Below, one piece after another: positions 8,153 to 28,156 of a stretch of 35,296 nt of DNA. The stretch is taken from positions 1 through 35,296 of the forward strand of contig CAMJAG010000003.1 of the NCBI GenBank assembly GCA_946403545.1, given 5' to 3'. The translations under genes were made by a program, and so were the position numbers. Each line of letters begins with the position of its first letter. Within the stretch, counting starts at the first letter, position 1. Source of the DNA: an uncultured Caryophanales bacterium (GTDB lineage: Bacteria; Bacillota_I; Bacilli_A; RFN20; CAG-826). Below the pieces are notes generated by a model. It saw nothing but the letters and a program-made list of their open reading frames with translations, searched no databases and was not told the origin of the DNA.

Positions 8153-11100
8153 TTATGCTTTTCTATTGTTTTTATTGCTTGCAAGCTTCTTTTCTAAAGC
8201 AGCTTGTTGAGCGTGTTTGACATTCTTTTCTAGATACATCATCTTATCTGCTTTTTCAGTAACTTTTTCAAAGTTTTCATCTGGCCATTCCATAATAGAG
8301 GAACCAACAGAAACACTAACTCTTGTATCTTCGATAACTAAGTTAGATTGTGCTTTAATTTCTTCCATGTATTTTTCACAATCTGCTTTATCACTACCAG
8401 GAACGATAATTAAGAATTCGTCACCACCTAAGCGGAAGAATTCTGAATTATCTGGGAATGATGTAGTTAAAATACCAGCAGTAGCTTTAATAAATCTGTC
8501 ACCAGCTTTATGACCGAATGTATCGTTAACGTGTTTTAATCTATCACAGTCTGCCATAAAGACACCAACTGGATATAAGACGTTTGGAAGAGTATGTTTA
8601 ACATACTCATCGAGTTTAGAACGGTTACCGAAACCTGTTAATTCATCAGTTTCTGCAACTTTTCTAAGTTTTTCTTCGATAGCGATCTTTTCAGTAACAT
8701 CATTAATTTGACCAACAATACCTATAATCTTGCCATTTTTATCTCTAACTGGACGTTTTATTAATTCAATATATTCTGGTTTTGTTGGATCGATATTAGC
8801 TTTAATGACATATTGACTTGGTCTACCTGTCTTCACAATCTTTCTATCTTCATTAAACGCTTTTTTAGCGTTATCTCTATCAATACGGACTTCTAAGTCT
8901 GTCTTGCCACGGATTGAGAAGTTTTCACTTCCATCAGTTTTAATTTGTTTCCAAATTTGAGAACAGAAGACATATCTACCTTTAGTATCTTTAAAGAAGA
9001 TATTACTTGGTAATTCTTTAAGAATTCTTTCAAGTTCTTCATAAGTAAGACCATTATTTGGATCAATAGTTTTATTTTCTTCTGTTTTACTAGAAATTTT
9101 TGAAGTAACTTTCTTCTTCTCGGAAGTAGTCATATATTTACCCATGTTTTGTTTGCAATCAAAGAATTTAGTCTTAACTGCTTCAAAACAATAGATTAAC
9201 TTTTCAGAATATGCACCACATTCTCCATTGAGAATCATATCGAAAGCTTCTTCATTTGTGTATGCTTCTTTATATGGTCTCTCACTCGTGAGAGCGTCAA
9301 AACAATCTGCGATAGAAACGATTTGAGCAGAAATTGGAATTTGATCTCCTTTTAGACCTTTAGGATATCCTCTTCCATCCCATTTTTCATGATGATACTG
9401 GCAAATATCAATTGCGGTTTTTAAGTAATCGTCATCCCAAATATCAGTTAGTTTTTCAAGTAACTTAGCACCTTCCACTGTATGAGATTTCATGGTTTCG
9501 AATTCTTCATTAGAGAGTTTTCCAGGTTTAAGTAAGATAGCATCTGTAATAGCAATCTTTCCTAAGTCATGGAGTTTACTTGCTAAAGCAAAAGTTTCAA
9601 CATCATCATCTGTTAATTTGTATTCAGGACATTGTTTTTTAACTTCTTTAGTTAAGATACGAGTAAACATAGCAACACGCTTAACGTGTTCACCAGAAGT
9701 TTTATCTCTTCCTTCAACTGTTTCCGCTAAAGCTTCAAAGATACCTTCGTTAACTGCTTCAAGTTCTTCATTGGACTTATTGAGTTCTTTAGTTCTTTCT
9801 TCGACAAGTTCTTCAAGGTGTTTTTGTTCGTTTTGAGTTTTTTTAACTTCACCATCAATATTAACAACACCAATAGCAGCGCTGTTTTCATTTTCACCTT
9901 TAACAATGACAAGTTTAAACCAGAGAACACTTCCCATAGAGATGTCTCTATATTTGATTTGGAATTCATCAGTTTCTCTGAGTTTTTGTCTGATGTATTC
10001 AGTTTTACAAACTTCTAACATCATTTCTCTATCTGGTTCAAAGACTTCTTCTTCTATGAAGTCTTCAAAATAATCATCAAAGTTTTCTAATTCGATAAAT
10101 CCATCAGCGTATTCATTGTGTCTCTTATAGATAGCGAATGCATTTTCATCTAAATCTAATAAGTACGCTGAATAATAGATATCTGCGAATAATTTATTAA
10201 AAGATTGAATTCTTCTTTGTTCAACTTCAAGTTCTTCAACCTTATTCTTAATTTTAATATCTTTATCAATGCTACCGATGGATGCAATAAGACCAATAAT
10301 GTCGTTACCCTTCTTATCAGCGGTAAATCTCATTTGATAGAATAGTTCTTCACCATTAATAATTGCTCTAAATGGAACAGTATATTCAGAGTCATAAGAC
10401 AATGAATCAATAACATCATTAAAGCTTACTGATTTTCTGAATGTAGATTGTTCTTTTGGAGAAACGATAGATAAAGTAATTTCATCTAACTTATCTTTAA
10501 AATATTTAGTTTTTGCTAAACTTGGCATGATTTTAGTAAAAGTTTCACTAATAATGTATGGTGAATCTTTTGCCTTGGTTGGATCTTCGTTATCATTCAT
10601 CCTTAAATAAGTAATGAAGTCATAACTTGATGTTAAGTTAGTCAAGATAGCTTTGTTTTTAACATTTGTGAATTCTTGGATTTCAAAATCGTGTTCAATA
10701 TTTTCTACTGACACAATCCAATGAAGCTTATCAATAGTTGCAGAAGCAACCATTCTTGTATGAGTAATCATTCCATTAATCAATAATCTGAATGAGAAAA
10801 CAACAGAATCTTTTTCTTTAAGTTTATTTTCAAGATTCTTCTTATTTAAGAATTGTGTGAACGCAAGAGTGTCTTCAGGATGAATAAATTTCTTTGCTCT
10901 TCTAATAGCTTCGCCAAAGAAATCATTACCATTAAATTCTAATTCAAAATGTTCTAAACCTTTTGCAGGTTTATAAATCAAATATTCATTATTATTTGGG
11001 TTAACATAGAAAATAATTTCTACTTGTCTACCTAATGCTGAAGCAATATCTTCAAGAATTCTACCTTTTTTAGCATCTTCTTTATCAAGGAATTCGCTAG

Positions 11101-12067
11101 TAATATCCTTAAGGATTCCTTCCATTCTATAATAGTTATCTTTTTCAGCAATAGATTTAGCAGCTGCTCTAAAATATGCAGTTGATCCATCTTTTCTCTT
11201 CCATGGATACTCTAATCTATAGACAGCTTCACCTTTAATCAATTTATCGATGTGAATCATCATCTCATCTAAAGCTTCTGGATCGATTCTTTCAAACCAT
11301 GCTCTATATAGTTTTTCAGGAGTTAAATTATCATTTTCAAATCCTAAAATTTTCAAACATTTTTCATCAGCATACATTCTTGGAGCGAAACCTTGGCCCA
11401 TTTCAATCGCATGGTTACCAATTGAATCATCATCTTCAAGAACTTCTTTAGCGATATTTTTAGCGCCAATTGATCTTAAAACACTATCATCTTGTTTTTC
11501 ACTAACAGTGTAATATTCCTTAAATGGTTGTAAATAAACTTCGTCATCCGGTAAACCAAGACCACTATTCATGTAAATTTTTGTCATAGCACTGCTAGCT
11601 CTAATAAATGCAGCAATAACAGTGAAAGGATCCTCAATGATTCCTCTTTCTTTGAAAGATTGACTTAAAATCTTATATGCATCAGTTTGTTCTAAGAACA
11701 CCCTTACTCTTTTAAGAACATCTTTAGGGAAGAAATTCATTGTATAACTAAAAGCAATTAAGAAATCTAATATAGGTTGCGCGTGCTCGCTCATTTCCTT
11801 AATTCTTTTAACACTTCTAACAAAGAAGTTTTCTACACTAGTATAATTTTTCTCCCCAAGAAGATAATGAGAACAGACATCTCTTAAAGTATCGACAAAA
11901 AGATCGTATTTGGATGGAAAGTTATCACGAACAAATTCTCTATCAACGCCTGCGCGTTTTGCAATTTCATCTAAACTGGTTAGTTCGTAACCCTTACTAC
12001 CGAACTCTAAGAGAGCGATGTCAAAAACTCGTCTTAAAGCGATTCTGCTTACATCTGTATCTTTCAT
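8153..12067 (-). CDS. TetR-like HTH / PAS / HD-GYP / PAS / GGDEF multidomain protein (predicted c-di-GMP turnover)
   Basis: N-terminal GYELTSLDEIAKRAGVDREFVRDNFPSKYDLF (TetR_N-like); HDLGK (9557-9571) and HHEKWDGRGYP (9362-9394); C-terminal FRLGGDEF (GGDEF codons 8414-8428). Confidence 0.85.
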   Translation of the reverse strand: MKDTDVSRIALRRVFDIALLEFGSKGYELTSLDEIAKRAGVDREFVRDNFPSKYDLFVDTLRDVCSHYLLGEKNYTSVENFFVRSVKRIKEMSEHAQPILDFLIAFSYTMNFFPKDVLKRVRVFLEQTDAYKILSQSFKERGIIEDPFTVIAAFIRASSAMTKIYMNSGLGLPDDEVYLQPFKEYYTVSEKQDDSVLRSIGAKNIAKEVLEDDDSIGNHAIEMGQGFAPRMYADEKCLKILGFENDNLTPEKLYRAWFERIDPEALDEMMIHIDKLIKGEAVYRLEYPWKRKDGSTAYFRAAAKSIAEKDNYYRMEGILKDITSEFLDKEDAKKGRILEDIASALGRQVEIIFYVNPNNNEYLIYKPAKGLEHFELEFNGNDFFGEAIRRAKKFIHPEDTLAFTQFLNKKNLENKLKEKDSVVFSFRLLINGMITHTRMVASATIDKLHWIVSVENIEHDFEIQEFTNVKNKAILTNLTSSYDFITYLRMNDNEDPTKAKDSPYIISETFTKIMPSLAKTKYFKDKLDEITLSIVSPKEQSTFRKSVSFNDVIDSLSYDSEYTVPFRAIINGEELFYQMRFTADKKGNDIIGLIASIGSIDKDIKIKNKVEELEVEQRRIQSFNKLFADIYYSAYLLDLDENAFAIYKRHNEYADGFIELENFDDYFEDFIEEEVFEPDREMMLEVCKTEYIRQKLRETDEFQIKYRDISMGSVLWFKLVIVKGENENSAAIGVVNIDGEVKKTQNEQKHLEELVEERTKELNKSNEELEAVNEGIFEALAETVEGRDKTSGEHVKRVAMFTRILTKEVKKQCPEYKLTDDDVETFALASKLHDLGKIAITDAILLKPGKLSNEEFETMKSHTVEGAKLLEKLTDIWDDDYLKTAIDICQYHHEKWDGRGYPKGLKGDQIPISAQIVSIADCFDALTSERPYKEAYTNEEAFDMILNGECGAYSEKLIYCFEAVKTKFFDCKQNMGKYMTTSEKKKVTSKISSKTEENKTIDPNNGLTYEELERILKELPSNIFFKDTKGRYVFCSQIWKQIKTDGSENFSIRGKTDLEVRIDRDNAKKAFNEDRKIVKTGRPSQYVIKANIDPTKPEYIELIKRPVRDKNGKIIGIVGQINDVTEKIAIEEKLRKVAETDELTGFGNRSKLDEYVKHTLPNVLYPVGVFMADCDRLKHVNDTFGHKAGDRFIKATAGILTTSFPDNSEFFRLGGDEFLIIVPGSDKADCEKYMEEIKAQSNLVIEDTRVSVSVGSSIMEWPDENFEKVTEKADKMMYLEKNVKHAQQAALEKKLASNKNNRKA

Positions 12068-12169: not shown

Positions 12170-12214
12170 CAATTTTTATGACAATCTTGCGATGAGTAAA
12201 ATTTGAGATTTATC
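12170..12214 (-). repeat. Copy B of a repeated hairpin motif (GATAAATC...ATCGCAAGATTGTCATAAAA)
   Basis: Shares GATAAATC and ATCGCAAGATWGTCATAAAA with copy A; flanks can form a partially paired outer stem. Confidence 0.5.
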
Positions 12215-12333: not shown

Positions 12334-12373
12334 CCCTATTTTATGACTATCTTGCGATAGATAGGGATTTATC
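12334..12373 (-). repeat. Copy A of a repeated hairpin motif (GATAAATCCCTATCTATCGCAAGATAGTCATAAAATAGGG)
   Basis: CTATC-GCAA-GATAG hairpin inside an outer stem CCCTAT/ATAGGG. Confidence 0.55.
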
Positions 12374-12407: not shown

Positions 12408-12435
12408 AAATGCGCACCATTACTGATGCGCATCT
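12408..12435 (-). terminator. Terminator after the ABC exporter operon
   Basis: ATGCGC-ATCAGTAATG-GTGCGCAT then TTTTCTTTT on the minus strand. Confidence 0.65.
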
Positions 12436-20623: not shown

Positions 20624-21691
20624 TTATTTATCTGCTTTAATATCGATTGCTTTTGATAATTCTTTTTGTTCTTCAACGAATTCTTCAGCTTTCTTAATTT
20701 CGTTTTTAGAGAGTTCGCTTGGTTTATCATTTTCACCCATATGAACAACAATTTGGTTGAATGGAATAGAAATACCATTATTATCAAATAAGATTTTAAT
20801 TTCACGGTTCAAATCTCTTTGAACTTGATAGATATCATTTTCGTTACACTTAGCAACGAATAATAAGTTAACTGAGCTTTCAGCAAGTTCACTGACACCT
20901 TTATAGAAAGGACCTTCAACAATAAGTGGTACTCTTTCTTTTAACTTATCAATATTATCAGAGATAATAGCTTCGACTTTTTCAATACGATCAGCATATG
21001 AAATCGCGACAGTACATTTTGCCAAAGATAATTCTTTAGTTTGGTTAATAATTGTTTTAATTTCACTGTTATTCACGATTTTTACGTTGAAACCAGCATC
21101 AATTAATCTTGTAGTTCTAATACCAATAACTTGGACTTCACCTCTCCAACCATCAATTATGATGATATCACCAACTTGGAAGTCTCCTTCAAAAACGATG
21201 AAGATACCGGCAAGGATATCTGCGATTAAAGTTTGAGAACCAAGACCAATGATAAGAGTTAAGACACCAGCACTAGCAAGGAGCATTGTTGTATTTGCAC
21301 CCCAGCTTGCCATAATGCAGAACGCACCAGCAATAGCGATTGTCCATTTTAAGAAGTTACATACTAATTTGAGAATTGTAACTGCTTTTTTGTCTTTCAT
21401 GTTTAACTTAGATAAACAATTTAGTAATACCGCACCGATTAAGCAGAATCCAATGATTTGGATTGTCCTTAAAATGCCAGGTAATACTAATGTAAATAAT
21501 GTGAAGAGTAATGTGTTGAATTGTCCGACATCTCCACCACAGTATTTATTTACCCATTCAGTTTTGGAGAGTTTGAATACATTAAAAATGTAATCTCCAA
21601 AAATGGTAAATAGGATGGCAGCAAGTGCAAAGATTGCAAATACTGACCATAACACAATTTTCTTAACAAATTTTTTGTCGTTGTTTTCCAT
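20624..21691 (-). CDS. MscS-family mechanosensitive ion channel
   Basis: LLASAGVLTLIIGLGSQTLIADILAGIFIVFEGDFQVGDII (pore helix/MscS signature). Confidence 0.92.
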   Translation of the reverse strand: MENNDKKFVKKIVLWSVFAIFALAAILFTIFGDYIFNVFKLSKTEWVNKYCGGDVGQFNTLLFTLFTLVLPGILRTIQIIGFCLIGAVLLNCLSKLNMKDKKAVTILKLVCNFLKWTIAIAGAFCIMASWGANTTMLLASAGVLTLIIGLGSQTLIADILAGIFIVFEGDFQVGDIIIIDGWRGEVQVIGIRTTRLIDAGFNVKIVNNSEIKTIINQTKELSLAKCTVAISYADRIEKVEAIISDNIDKLKERVPLIVEGPFYKGVSELAESSVNLLFVAKCNENDIYQVQRDLNREIKILFDNNGISIPFNQIVVHMGENDKPSELSKNEIKKAEEFVEEQKELSKAIDIKADK

Positions 21692-21707: not shown

Positions 21708-24700
21708 TTATCCGTTAGATACCTCTACGGTAAATTGTGTATGTAAAGCTACAGTGACATATTGATAATCTTGAGAATAATATGTGCTGTATCTTAATGT
21801 AACGTTGACTTCATTGCTAGAAAGGAACGATAGCAATCCAGGTAAATCATCTACTCTATTTAATCTTAATGAATATGTTTCATTGACATTGTCAAAATTC
21901 ATCAAGCTTTCTTCTGTCATAGAAACTTCATATCTTTCATTTTCGTTACTATCAGAAGAGAAGATGATTGTATATTCACTAGCACTATAAGTGAGATAAC
22001 GTCCATAAATATTAAATTGTAATATTGGACTAGAGTATTGAATTGTTGTGTTTGTTAAAGAGCATGCGACAATATCAGTACCATCACGTAAATCAAGTGT
22101 AATAGTAGCATTTCCTATTACGTCAAAAGTTTGTCCTTTGACTGTTGTTGAAATTCCATATTCAAGGCGGAGATCTAAAGGATATCCATTAGCATCGGCC
22201 GAATCAACAGAAGCTCCTGGATTAGCAGTTTTATAAGCTTGTAAAGCGCTTGTGATATTAACATATTGATATCCACTAACTTTATTTAATGTAATTTCTT
22301 CACTAAATGCTCCAGATTGTGAAGTGGAATTAGAAATTGTTAAAGTCCAATTGCCAACAGAATTAGTGTTATCAACATAGTTGATATATGCAATACCATA
22401 ATATTGATCACCACTTCTAATAACGCTGCTATAGAAGTTTGCATCATAGATTTCATAAGCACTTTGGAATGTTTGAATGCCTTCATAGTACTCAGAGCCT
22501 GTTCTAGCGTCAGTGTAGAATACTTTATAGCTCACTTCTGTGGCTTCAGAGAAATATAATTCGTATTGGCTAATATCAATTGTTTGAGCAGATAATGTCT
22601 TTGTTAACCCAAAGTTATACTCTTGTGGATCCATTTGGTCAGCTCCATAAGAAACATATAGAGTTAAGGAGAAGTTACTTAAGTAACCATAATCATCAGC
22701 ATAGTCTAATGTAAGAGTAATTACACCTTCCATTTGATCAATGTATGGATCGAATGTAACGCCTCTGAATTCAGTAACTCTATTTTGAATATCAGTGAAT
22801 GTTATTGTTTCAGCACCTTCTAATGTTCTAAAACTATTAAGTTCGTAATAATGGAGTTCATATTGGAATTCTTGACTTAAGTCAAAGTAATTTCCAATGG
22901 AATATCCCCATCCACTATGTAAATCAACTGCTTGTTTTTCTGTTGTAGCTTCAAGACTAAATGATAAAACGTATGATTCGAATTTAAGGTCTACATAGAA
23001 ACTTCTAAATTCATTTAATTCATTATCAAAATCAAGTGTTACATAGATAATTGCGTCTTTAAAGTCTGCTTGAGAATCGAATGTAATGCCTCTAAATTCT
23101 TGTTTAGCACCACTGTTATCTGTGAATGTAACGTTCCCTGTTGATTCGATAGTTTTTCCTTGCTTTCTATCATAATATGTGAACTTATAAGAGAATGTCC
23201 CATGCATATTGTAATCAGTTAAAAGTTGACCAGAAGTAGACTCATAATCATCAGGATTTAAAACTTCTAATGTTTGTTTAGATGTAGTTGGAGCTAAATC
23301 ATAGAATAATTGGCAATTGCCTTGTTTAGCAATTTGGAGTCTAAAACTTGAGAAATAGCCATAATCATTGTCCATATCTAATGTGACACTGAATGTTTTA
23401 TTCAAGTAGTTTGCTTCAGGATCAAAGACAATGCCTCTAAATTCACTAACGGCGCCGCTTTCATCATAGAAAGTAACTGGATTTTGAGAATCAACTTGGA
23501 CTAAATCGCCTTTATTTGAATATGTTAAAACATATCCAAAAGTATCATCTAGGATTAATGTTTCTAATAATTCATCACTTGGATGGCCACCTTCAATAGT
23601 AGCGTCTCTTAAGTAAATAGTTTGTTTTTCAGTTGTTGCTCTTAAATCAAATGTCATCATTGGTTGGTTTTGACAAGATAACATTAATGTAAAGTTGGAG
23701 AAATGTAGGTAGTCGTTATCAAAATCAAGTGTGACATAGAAGTATTTTTCAATGAAGTTAGCGTTTTCATGGATTGTAATACCTCTAAATTCTTGAACAG
23801 CACCACTGACATCTTCAAATACCATTGGTTGCTCAGATTCAACTGATTTAGTTTCTCCTCTTTCTTTATAGGTAAGCGTGTATGAGAAAGCAGTATCTTC
23901 TAAAACGATGTTAGATGTATTGCCTCCTTCTTCACCTTGAATAGCACTGCTTAACTGAAGCGCTTGCTTTTCAGTAGTTGTTTCTAAGTTAAATGTATAT
24001 GTTGGAGTTGTTTGAGAAGTTAAAGTAAATACGAAGTCAGATAAGTGGCCTAAATCATTATCAAAATCAAGTGTGACGTAAATCACATTTCTTAAGAAAT
24101 CAGCTTCATTACTGAGTTCTACCCCTCTAAATTCTTGTTTTGCACCACTATTATCAGTGAATCTAACTGTACCTTTTTCAGCTTCAATTAGTTCATTATT
24201 AAATACGTAAGTTAAGGAATAACCATATTCATTACCAAGAGTGAAATCGAATTCTACTTCATCTTGGTTTTGAGAATAACCACTTAATGTTTGTACAGCA
24301 GTTGTTTTCTCTAAGTTATAAACACGAACACCTTCTTGACCGGTTAATGTGAATTTAAAGTCAGAGAATTCTCCAATTGGATCATCATAGAACATGGAGA
24401 TTTCAAACGAATTTGTTCTAAAGTTAGCGGTTTTATCAAAAGTAAAGTCTTTAAATTCAGCATATGTCTCAGGTTCTGGTTCAGGAACATATTCACTTAA
24501 TGTAGTGACATATTCGGTTGCGTGGATAGTTTTATCTAAATCCGCACTTCTAATGTTCAAAACATACTTTGTTTCAGGTTTAAGGAATAGGAACTCGTCT
24601 TTATTTAGGCCTTCTTCAAGAACTCTTGTGTCAATTACTTGGTCATCTTCAAAAGAAAGAAGTTCAAGATAGAAAGGAACTTCATCAGTTTCTTCTAGTT

Positions 24701-25109
24701 CAATACCATAAAAAATACTATGCGTACTTGCGTCTAAATAAGTAAATTCTGCTCTAACGTTTTGAAGAATACTTGCACCGATAACAGAACCGACCACAGG
24801 AATAACAACAACTGTAGCAGCACCAGCAACAACCGCACCGGCAGAAGCACCGGCAGAAGCGTTAGTTATTTGTTTGACTGTTTCAGTATTTTTTTGTTGT
24901 TGACTCTTGTTTTTGTAGTTAGGATTATTTCTTCCGATTAACCCATTTTTCTCTCTATCATCATTGATAATTTCGACATCATTTATATTGGATTTGCAAG
25001 GTTCTGGATTACCTTTAAATTCAGAAAATTCAGTCTTTTGAGTCTTACCAAATTCTGAGCCTTCAAAATCATTTTTGATTTTTACATTGTTATACTCATC
25101 GTATCTCAT
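21708..25109 (-). CDS. Large single-TM repeat protein (tandem ~110-120 aa beta-sandwich-like repeats)
   Basis: Charged N-terminus, one Gly/Ala-rich hydrophobic segment (ASAGASAGAVVAGAATVVVIPVVGSVIGASI), then repeats of EFRGxxFD..ADF....YVTLDFDNDyG.fSxFxxxL...TTEKQ. Confidence 0.75.
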   Translation of the reverse strand: MRYDEYNNVKIKNDFEGSEFGKTQKTEFSEFKGNPEPCKSNINDVEIINDDREKNGLIGRNNPNYKNKSQQQKNTETVKQITNASAGASAGAVVAGAATVVVIPVVGSVIGASILQNVRAEFTYLDASTHSIFYGIELEETDEVPFYLELLSFEDDQVIDTRVLEEGLNKDEFLFLKPETKYVLNIRSADLDKTIHATEYVTTLSEYVPEPEPETYAEFKDFTFDKTANFRTNSFEISMFYDDPIGEFSDFKFTLTGQEGVRVYNLEKTTAVQTLSGYSQNQDEVEFDFTLGNEYGYSLTYVFNNELIEAEKGTVRFTDNSGAKQEFRGVELSNEADFLRNVIYVTLDFDNDLGHLSDFVFTLTSQTTPTYTFNLETTTEKQALQLSSAIQGEEGGNTSNIVLEDTAFSYTLTYKERGETKSVESEQPMVFEDVSGAVQEFRGITIHENANFIEKYFYVTLDFDNDYLHFSNFTLMLSCQNQPMMTFDLRATTEKQTIYLRDATIEGGHPSDELLETLILDDTFGYVLTYSNKGDLVQVDSQNPVTFYDESGAVSEFRGIVFDPEANYLNKTFSVTLDMDNDYGYFSSFRLQIAKQGNCQLFYDLAPTTSKQTLEVLNPDDYESTSGQLLTDYNMHGTFSYKFTYYDRKQGKTIESTGNVTFTDNSGAKQEFRGITFDSQADFKDAIIYVTLDFDNELNEFRSFYVDLKFESYVLSFSLEATTEKQAVDLHSGWGYSIGNYFDLSQEFQYELHYYELNSFRTLEGAETITFTDIQNRVTEFRGVTFDPYIDQMEGVITLTLDYADDYGYLSNFSLTLYVSYGADQMDPQEYNFGLTKTLSAQTIDISQYELYFSEATEVSYKVFYTDARTGSEYYEGIQTFQSAYEIYDANFYSSVIRSGDQYYGIAYINYVDNTNSVGNWTLTISNSTSQSGAFSEEITLNKVSGYQYVNITSALQAYKTANPGASVDSADANGYPLDLRLEYGISTTVKGQTFDVIGNATITLDLRDGTDIVACSLTNTTIQYSSPILQFNIYGRYLTYSASEYTIIFSSDSNENERYEVSMTEESLMNFDNVNETYSLRLNRVDDLPGLLSFLSSNEVNVTLRYSTYYSQDYQYVTVALHTQFTVEVSNG
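22560..24480 (-). repeat. Tandem protein-coding repeats (about six clear units) inside the 1133-aa protein
   Basis: EFRG codons recur near 24124, 23791, 23431, 23091 and 22762 (spacing about 330-360 nt), plus a more divergent unit (EFKDFTFD) near 24450. Confidence 0.8.
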
Positions 25110-25188: not shown

Positions 25189-25815
25189 TTATTTTTCGCC
25201 CTTATTAGTGAATTGTTTAATCTTGTTTTTAATCAGTTTTTTGAATTCCTCAAATCTAAGATTTTGCGCTTCTTTAACCTCTTTTAATTTAGTAGCAAGG
25301 TGCACCGAGTAAGAGAAATCAACGAGCATCATCCCCATAACAGCACCTATAAAATAGGTGTATATGAGGTTTTCGCTTATCCAGGTTATACCATTAACAA
25401 GTAATGGATTTAAGAAGAAATAGTATAAAGAACCCACTACTAACCAGATAAGCGAAAAGGCTGGACATATAATACCCATAATGTTTCCTTTTCTATCCGA
25501 ATAATCCCATAGTTTTGCTTTAAACCCTTTTATAAAGATAAGTCCAGCGATGAATTCTATGAGGGTCATTCCTGCTCCGATTAATAGGATTCTAATAATT
25601 GCGTTTACTATTTGATTAGAAATTGGAATATCAATACTACTTAAAACAAATAAAACTACGACACCACATCCGTAAATTGGTAAATATGGACCAGTTAAAA
25701 AACCTGGGTTAACCCATTTCTTTTGAGATACAAATCTTCTAAAGAATAGTTCGATTATCCAGCCAAGTAGGCTTCCTATAACGAATAACGTAGATCCAAT
25801 AACTAAATACTTCAT
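25189..25815 (-). CDS. Putative ABC transporter permease-like membrane protein (ABC_trans_CmpB family)
   Basis: LGWIIELFFRRFVSQKKWVNPGFLTGPYLPIYGCGV motif; multi-TM. Confidence 0.75.
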   Translation of the reverse strand: MKYLVIGSTLFVIGSLLGWIIELFFRRFVSQKKWVNPGFLTGPYLPIYGCGVVVLFVLSSIDIPISNQIVNAIIRILLIGAGMTLIEFIAGLIFIKGFKAKLWDYSDRKGNIMGIICPAFSLIWLVVGSLYYFFLNPLLVNGITWISENLIYTYFIGAVMGMMLVDFSYSVHLATKLKEVKEAQNLRFEEFKKLIKNKIKQFTNKGEK

Positions 25816-25891: not shown

Positions 25892-28156
25892 TTACTTTCT
25901 AGCACCTGAGAAGATTATGTCTTTTGAGAGGAGATATTCTCCTTCTTCAATCTTCTTCATAAGGTCTTCATAGCTTAGTGGTTTTCCATATAGATAACCT
26001 TGTAATCTACCACAGCTAGCGGATTCTAAGAATTCTGCTTGTTCTTTTGTTTCAACACCTTCACATAATGTCTTCATACCAATTTTAGCAGCCATATCGA
26101 TGACAGATTTAATTAAACTACGAGCCTTTTCGTTCCCATCAAATCCAACTAAGAATTTCATATCAAGTTTTAAAACATCGAAGTCATAGTCTTTTAAGAC
26201 ATTAAATGAAGAATAACCACTGCCAAAGTCATCTAACCATGTAGCATAGCCATTTTGATGTAACTTAATGATCGTATCTTTAAGTAAGTCTTCATCCTCC
26301 ATCAAAGCACTTTCAGTGATTTCAACATGTAATAAATCTTTTGGAATATTGTATCTTTCTACAGTTTTATTAACGACATCTACGATGTCAATTAGACCAA
26401 AGTCTGCTCTAGAGAAGTTAATAGAGACTGGTAAGACTGCTAGATTGTTATCTAAGTTATATCTAATGTCTTGGCAAACAACTCTAATAATTTCCATATC
26501 CAATTTATGGATTAATTGAGCGTTTTCTAATGCTGGAACGAATTTAGCAGGACTTAAGAAGCCATATTTTGGATCAATCCATCTAGCTAAAGCTTCTGCT
26601 CCGCAGAGTTCTCTACCTTTAGACCAAACAACTGGTTGATAGTATGCTTTGATATAACCATTTTCAACAGCTTCATCGATATGATTAACAATATATTGAA
26701 CCATCAAGTAGTCATCATGCATTTGATTATCGTAATACATAAATTCTTTACCTTGATGTTTATGTTTAAGTTCTGAATAAGCATATCTTGCTTTTTCCAC
26801 TGATGCGTGAGGATCTTCAATAGGATTATAGATTGGGAAAATTCCTGCTTTTAAGCCTGGTTTAATATCTAAATCCATTGCTCTAATTCTTTCGTTTGCG
26901 ATATGGAATTTTTCTTCTACTTCCTCATTCTTTGTAAAAATTACAAAGTGATCATCGCTTTGACGGCTTATGTAGCTATCAGTATAGACCTTATTAAGTT
27001 CTTCACCAACTTCTTTTAAGAAGAGATTACCTCTATCAAAACCTTTTTGGTCATTATAAATTTTGAAGTTAGTGATATTTATGAACAAATATGCCCATTC
27101 ATCTTGTTGAATATTATCTTTTGCTATCCTCTCTTTACAAAGAATAGTGAAATATTCAAAAGAATATAAACCTGTTAATTTATCTTTTGTCGCTAACTCT
27201 TCGAGTTCTTCATCTTTTCTAGCTTCACTAACACGTTGGTTGAAGATAGAAATACACACCATTGTAAGGGAAATATAGAAAGTTAAATAATTAACTTTAT
27301 CTCCTTCAGGGAACACTCTTTGTCCTAAATTAGCAGCGCCAGTAATAGCAAAATAGAATCCTAAGAATAATGTTCCTAATAATCCTATAGATATTAAAGG
27401 GTTCCAAATTAACAAACAACCAACATAGATTGTGAACATCAAGAAGCAAATAATTTCTTTGTTCTCATACATTACAGAGTTTGGGTCTGTTGGCATTGTT
27501 ATCTTGTTACCAGCACTATCATAAACAGCTTTAACACTGACAAAGTCGCCATAAGAAACCATTATGCCAAAGATTAAACAAACAAAAGCAAATAAAGAGA
27601 TAACTAAAACCGAACCAACGGAAGCTCTTTTTCCACCTTTATATTTATATAAAGAAGCAAAAATAATTCCTATGTCAAAGAATATTACAGAAGCATAGAA
27701 AATTATTTTAAATATACCTTTTATAGTGTTGACACTAGATGTGAATTTAATTGATTTATATTGAAACTCTAAAGGTAATAAAGCACAAACAACCAAAGAA
27801 AGCCCAGCAAACACAATAGTTGAAATGAGTCTAGATTTAGTTTTTTTCTTAGATAAGTATTGTAATGAATAAATAAACATTGCAAAACCCATCGACATTA
27901 GTAAGAAAAAGTTTGATGTGTTTGTAAATATTACCCTAAAAACTGAATATGTGTTATTTGGATCTTGAAGAGTTGGGACAATGTATTTTTGAGTTTGTCT
28001 AAGAATTAACCATATTTCCAAAACAAAAATGACCGCAGACATAAAGATAGCGCTTCTCATGTTTGCGTCGTTTAAATAATTCTTTACATATTTACTATTT
28101 TTGCGGATACCAAAAATAGTTAAAAAATTATCCCAAAATTGTTTCAAAAGTTTCAT
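25892..28156 (-). CDS. Membrane-bound degenerate GGDEF + EAL protein (predicted c-di-GMP phosphodiesterase)
   Basis: N-terminal multi-TM; degenerate GGDEF position (SRQSDDHFVIF); intact-looking EAL motifs (GAEALARW, EITESAL, LDDFGSGYSS, LKLDMKF, CEGVET, QGYLYGKPL). Confidence 0.9.
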   Translation of the reverse strand: MKLLKQFWDNFLTIFGIRKNSKYVKNYLNDANMRSAIFMSAVIFVLEIWLILRQTQKYIVPTLQDPNNTYSVFRVIFTNTSNFFLLMSMGFAMFIYSLQYLSKKKTKSRLISTIVFAGLSLVVCALLPLEFQYKSIKFTSSVNTIKGIFKIIFYASVIFFDIGIIFASLYKYKGGKRASVGSVLVISLFAFVCLIFGIMVSYGDFVSVKAVYDSAGNKITMPTDPNSVMYENKEIICFLMFTIYVGCLLIWNPLISIGLLGTLFLGFYFAITGAANLGQRVFPEGDKVNYLTFYISLTMVCISIFNQRVSEARKDEELEELATKDKLTGLYSFEYFTILCKERIAKDNIQQDEWAYLFINITNFKIYNDQKGFDRGNLFLKEVGEELNKVYTDSYISRQSDDHFVIFTKNEEVEEKFHIANERIRAMDLDIKPGLKAGIFPIYNPIEDPHASVEKARYAYSELKHKHQGKEFMYYDNQMHDDYLMVQYIVNHIDEAVENGYIKAYYQPVVWSKGRELCGAEALARWIDPKYGFLSPAKFVPALENAQLIHKLDMEIIRVVCQDIRYNLDNNLAVLPVSINFSRADFGLIDIVDVVNKTVERYNIPKDLLHVEITESALMEDEDLLKDTIIKLHQNGYATWLDDFGSGYSSFNVLKDYDFDVLKLDMKFLVGFDGNEKARSLIKSVIDMAAKIGMKTLCEGVETKEQAEFLESASCGRLQGYLYGKPLSYEDLMKKIEEGEYLLSKDIIFSGARK

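Follow-up and report, generated by a model that had tools for sequence, protein, structure and literature searches.

The window, that is, the whole stretch of 35,296 nucleotides analysed here, is one contig of a MAG of 970 kb that is 87% complete. Its minus strand carries the gene of a 1304-aa protein in which a TetR-type N-terminus is followed by a PAS domain, PAS-like repeats, HD-GYP, a further PAS and GGDEF (Table 1). TetR_N, PAS_3, HD_5/HD, PAS_4 and GGDEF were each found above the Pfam cut-off. The reading proposed for this DNA in an earlier note, a TetR_N helix-turn-helix at the N-terminus with PAS on both sides of HD-GYP, was thereby borne out, as was the extent of the open reading frame, for which the note was silent on strand. 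The sub-threshold stretches between PAS_3 and HD-GYP are probably PAS domains with approximately the boundaries listed; those at ~465-600 and ~620-740 are conserved in a sister genus described below. A hydrophobic stretch resembling a transmembrane segment was absent from the protein (highest 19-residue Kyte-Doolittle mean 1.14), in agreement with the soluble polypeptide claimed before.

Table 1 Features of the fusion gene and its upstream region, and two related fusions of genome G582 (window positions unless another locus is named)
Feature	Position	Strand	Basis or remark
Whole gene, 1304 aa: TetR-PAS-PAS-like repeats-HD-GYP-PAS-GGDEF	8153..12067	-	ORF translation, Pfam
TetR_N helix-turn-helix, residues 12-62 (Pfam 18-58)	11882..12034	-	32.3 bits, cut-off 24; matches solved TetR structures
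Predicted TetR C-terminal (dimer/ligand) domain, residues 63-187	11507..11881	-	Profile match to free-standing TetRs, columns 10-192
PAS_3, residues 231-318	11114..11377	-	Pfam 45.3 bits
PAS-like stretches, ~residues 335-458, 465-600, 620-740	9848..11065	-	Sub-threshold in Pfam
HD-GYP phosphodiesterase domain, residues 772-972 (HD_5 797-945)	9152..9754	-	HD_5 108 bits; aligned to PmGH 4mcw, 4r8z
PAS_4, residues 1017-1127	8687..9019	-	Pfam 33.9 bits
GGDEF diguanylate cyclase domain, residues 1138-1283	8219..8656	-	Pfam 97.6 bits; 5llw alignment; active-site motif intact
Direct repeat copy 1, TTTTATGACAATCTTGCGAT	12174..12193		Possible regulatory site
Direct repeat copy 2, TTTTATGACTATCTTGCGAT	12339..12358		Possible regulatory site
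Terminator-like hairpin after upstream ABC-2 permease gene	12408..12435	-	1 found, shuffles mean 0.3
TetR-HisKA-REC-GGDEF, 916 aa	L082:6488-9238	-	G582
TetR + PAS-like repeats, 605 aa, no recognised output domain	L083:4538-6355	-	G582

The hairpin lies between the genes of the ABC-2 permease and the fusion protein, which suggests that a promoter of its own drives the fusion gene. On the same strand, 63 bp downstream, a rubrerythrin gene follows; this neighbourhood is known from one MAG, and the window's genus was represented by one genome. Elsewhere in the window, 25892-28156 (-) encodes a protein with GGDEF and EAL whose N-terminus has a weak acyltransferase-like match. Its gene lies in a run on one strand together with those of a CmpB-type permease (25189-25815), an MscS-like channel (20624-21691) and a 1133-aa protein (21708-25109) that contains internal repeats and has no match in Pfam or NCBIfam. 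A search of the window against Rfam gave only tRNAs and no riboswitch upstream of the fusion gene. The c-di-GMP-I riboswitch had no match in the window's genome, nor in the control genomes, which deprives this negative of weight. A search for PilZ proteins, in which the control worked, gave none in the 87% complete genome.

The H/HD/H/HH/D ligands of the HD-GYP domain were aligned with those of PmGH (4mcw), whose metal-ligand identities we take to be those established for that structure. One Glu of the trinuclear site was replaced by Thr; the domain, which the earlier note called intact-looking, carries most of the metal ligands. Since Thr stands in place of the Glu ligand, a binuclear metal site is more likely. 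In one relative, a ligand His of HD-GYP was replaced by Asn. The GGDEF domain contains the motifs RLGGDEF and DCDRLKHVND, so the substrate and metal motifs are present, and inspection of the sequence revealed no RxxD at its I-site; an intact GGDEF of this kind had been proposed, and the motifs together with the Pfam score agree with it. Judged by these motifs, the protein would both synthesize c-di-GMP through GGDEF and hydrolyse it through HD-GYP.

Profiles of the TetR part were aligned over ~180 columns with free-standing TetR proteins of 202-211 aa from the same family, and also with solved TetR structures. The match thus extends beyond the helix-turn-helix, and residues 1-187 appear to form a complete TetR-type regulator. 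In the fusion proteins, the Tyr that is canonical in helix 3 of TetR is Val or Ile. This substitution would be expected if the TetR fold had been reused as a sensor or dimeriser, serving to bind a small ligand or to bring the enzyme into dimers and no longer binding DNA, and such a role would also suit the GGDEF domain, the catalysis of which requires dimers. However, the same Tyr is missing from some free-standing TetR proteins, which makes its absence uninformative, and the reading of a degenerate helix-turn-helix was dropped. The conservation pattern in the relatives, described below, bears more directly on this reading.

In a search of 58 genomes, a single long homologue turned up, which belongs to a different genus within the same family, and an initial contig scan with the full-length 1304-aa protein as query gave no match. 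For the order, a profile built on residues 1-330 was run against 279 genomes, and long TetR fusions were found in four of them only (G000, G015, G185 and G186). The last three belong to one sister genus and are MAGs named 'Bacilli bacterium'; their recorded origins are horse feces (L063) and yak omasum (L064), and for the third (L065) the title gives only isolate RUI143. The sister-genus homologues have 1326-1331 aa, share 27-28% identity with the window protein and keep the same domain order, with a REC domain added before GGDEF. Because the architecture was found again in independent MAGs, it is neither a chance product nor chimeric, and an assembly artefact was ruled out. Two further TetR fusions (Table 1) were detected in a third lineage, genome G582 of another family and order, which was drawn from a sample of 395 genomes of the class; the 605-aa one can be aligned to the sensor half of the fusion family. 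No other such fusion was seen in 90 genomes of the order of G582 or among 392 genomes drawn from the phylum. The architecture, previously called unusual, is thus rare in the order and yet not unique, as at least three lineages of Bacilli fuse TetR to signalling modules.

Long-frame TetR matches in G572, G628 and G520 were rejected as an ordinary TetR of 185 aa or as TetR proteins of 433-484 aa in which GGDEF or HD-GYP motifs were not seen. TetR_N-like proteins with long C-terminal extensions, of 484 aa (L112:1387-2841, minus strand) and 433 aa (L113:1847-3148, minus strand), adjoin ABC-2 permease-like genes and represent a different kind of TetR fusion.

The sister-genus fusion gene is preceded on its own strand by a FIST hybrid kinase gene and a gene for a 115-aa HPt protein, the frame of which is visible in the DNA alignment in the third genome; two genomes carry a second hybrid kinase gene in the same 5' region. 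With hybrid kinases and HPt adjoining and REC within the fusion, it is likely that a phosphorelay feeds the REC domain of these proteins.

Within the sister genus, the helix-turn-helix was 78-84% identical (78-82% in deeper comparisons), and its recognition helix did not vary (100%). For the TetR C-terminal domain, the closest pair shared 68% and the two deeper comparisons gave 34-35%, alongside 56-57% for HD-GYP and 68-69% for GGDEF. In these deeper comparisons, the helix-turn-helix was better conserved than any other part of the protein, and selection on the recognition helix in these relatives is shown by computation. In the interval from HPt to the fusion gene, the best conserved block consisted of the -10 box and a palindrome that follows and overlaps it. 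This palindrome, TACTAAA-N6-TTTA(C/G)TA, overlapped the fusion gene's -10 box in each of the three genomes, and its half ACGTTTASTAAAY occurred exactly once in each, at the fusion promoter. An invariant recognition helix together with a diverged C-terminal domain is the opposite of what reuse of the fold without DNA binding predicts, and the promoter palindromes also speak against that reading, which we consider unlikely. Together, these features support real DNA binding by the sister-genus fusion and regulation of its own gene. Of the two options left by the earlier note, the relatives thus favour DNA binding and disfavour a TetR fold reused only as sensor or dimeriser.

Exact matches to TACTAAA-N6-TTTASTA were also found at the promoter of the 605-aa gene in G582, where the recognition helix of the fusion resembles the sister-genus one, and, at loci fetched by a related pattern, near the rubrerythrin gene in two sister-genus genomes. 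Tandem operator-like sequences, CGTTTAGTAAA, sit at matching places (~1501-1535) in L135 of G186 and L142 of G185, flanked by a permease gene and by the 3' end of a rubrerythrin gene. The occurrence of the palindrome pattern between these two genes in two sister-genus MAGs, together with the close same-strand rubrerythrin neighbour in the window, could point to a regulator of rubrerythrin in oxidative stress with c-di-GMP turnover as a secondary output. This appears very improbable to us: the sister-genus sites are located past the 3' end of the rubrerythrin gene and not at its promoter, and in the window's genome the neighbourhood comes from a single MAG.

To look for a broader regulon in the sister genus, matches with up to 2 mismatches were counted elsewhere in the genomes; they were no commoner than in a backward-read control, and among the 11 that were inspected, 7 lay inside ORFs and 4 were intergenic. 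Near matches at the control level and mostly in coding positions favour autoregulation over a broad regulon, although a few other targets may exist. The same observations are compatible with an autoregulated enzyme and nothing more, in which TetR represses its own gene and thereby caps a bifunctional diguanylate cyclase/phosphodiesterase, the diffusible c-di-GMP acts elsewhere and the two halves are uncoupled. The overlap of the relatives' self-operator with the -10 box, a classic position for repression, and the lack of a clear regulon agree with it. However, it leaves unexplained why divergent homologues keep the fusion instead of two genes, and we regard it as rather doubtful.

Upstream of the window gene the picture is different. 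The recognition helix of the window protein differs from that of the relatives, the window lacks their palindrome even with 2 mismatches allowed, and the best palindrome upstream of the gene was within the range of shuffles. Instead, two direct repeats of 20 bp, 165 bp apart and identical at 19 of 20 positions, were found (Table 1), an identity unmatched in 200 simulated regions; no other site in the genome has fewer than 2 mismatches to the repeat. Read on the strand of the gene, both copies contain the core ATC-GCAA-GAT. Since the helix differs, the palindrome is not shared and only direct repeats are available as a candidate site, we infer DNA binding and autoregulation of the window protein by homology, with the direct repeat as the one local feature besides.

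These facts are best explained, in our opinion and with moderate confidence, by a cytoplasmic DNA-binding c-di-GMP enzyme that acts like a trigger enzyme and is most likely autoregulated. In the proposed mechanism, the TetR-type regulator of residues 1-187 would dimerise and bind a short operator, for which the promoter of the enzyme's own gene is the most likely place. The PAS domains, with ligands that are presumably internal, would sense a cue inside the cell, and in the sister genus a relay of hybrid kinase, HPt and REC could add a second input. The signal would set the balance between c-di-GMP synthesis by GGDEF and hydrolysis by HD-GYP, and the state of these two domains may be transmitted through the dimer and alter operator occupancy. 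This last coupling, by which the turnover or binding of c-di-GMP in the HD-GYP/GGDEF-TetR molecule itself would set operator occupancy and make the protein a self-regulating DNA-bound switch, is possible and is put forward tentatively. With both c-di-GMP domains placed on a TetR regulator and an operator predicted in the relatives, the question can be tested with purified proteins and short DNAs. The arrangement further hints at a way in which a bacterium of ~1 Mb genome size could tie c-di-GMP to transcription without PilZ proteins.

Several known systems share parts of this architecture. PmGH (4mcw) and PA4781 (4r8z) have HD-GYP domains whose H/HD/H/HH/D ligands align with those of the window protein, but they contain no TetR domain, and the PmGH Glu discussed above is Thr in the window protein. 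PAS-GGDEF diguanylate cyclases likewise have PAS adjoining an intact GGDEF; in the window protein, this pair comes after TetR, PAS-like repeats and HD-GYP. LtmA of Mycobacterium smegmatis is a c-di-GMP-responsive TetR regulator which binds c-di-GMP made by other proteins (PMC10519070); it resembles the window protein in linking a TetR-type helix-turn-helix regulator to c-di-GMP, but in the window protein the TetR domain is fused to the domains for synthesis and hydrolysis. In the open-access literature, no report of a TetR-GGDEF or TetR-HD-GYP fusion was recognised, and within that literature the combination of TetR, HD-GYP and GGDEF would be a new form of fusion between a helix-turn-helix and c-di-GMP enzymes. 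The closest precedent is PdeL (YahA) of E. coli, a trigger phosphodiesterase with a LuxR-type helix-turn-helix and EAL, whose target is an imperfect palindrome in the promoter of its own gene and whose autoregulation depends on the c-di-GMP level (PMC5052742). As in the window protein, a DNA-binding domain and a c-di-GMP phosphodiesterase are joined in one polypeptide, and the predicted architecture fits trigger enzymes of the PdeL/PdeR type. The function of PdeL has been tested, whereas the window protein is known here from its sequence, and PdeL combines LuxR-type DNA binding with EAL instead of TetR with HD-GYP; GGDEF, PAS and REC are not described for it. If the DNA-bound switch is real, trigger enzymes would include HD-GYP and GGDEF besides EAL, and the sister proteins would add phosphorelay input.
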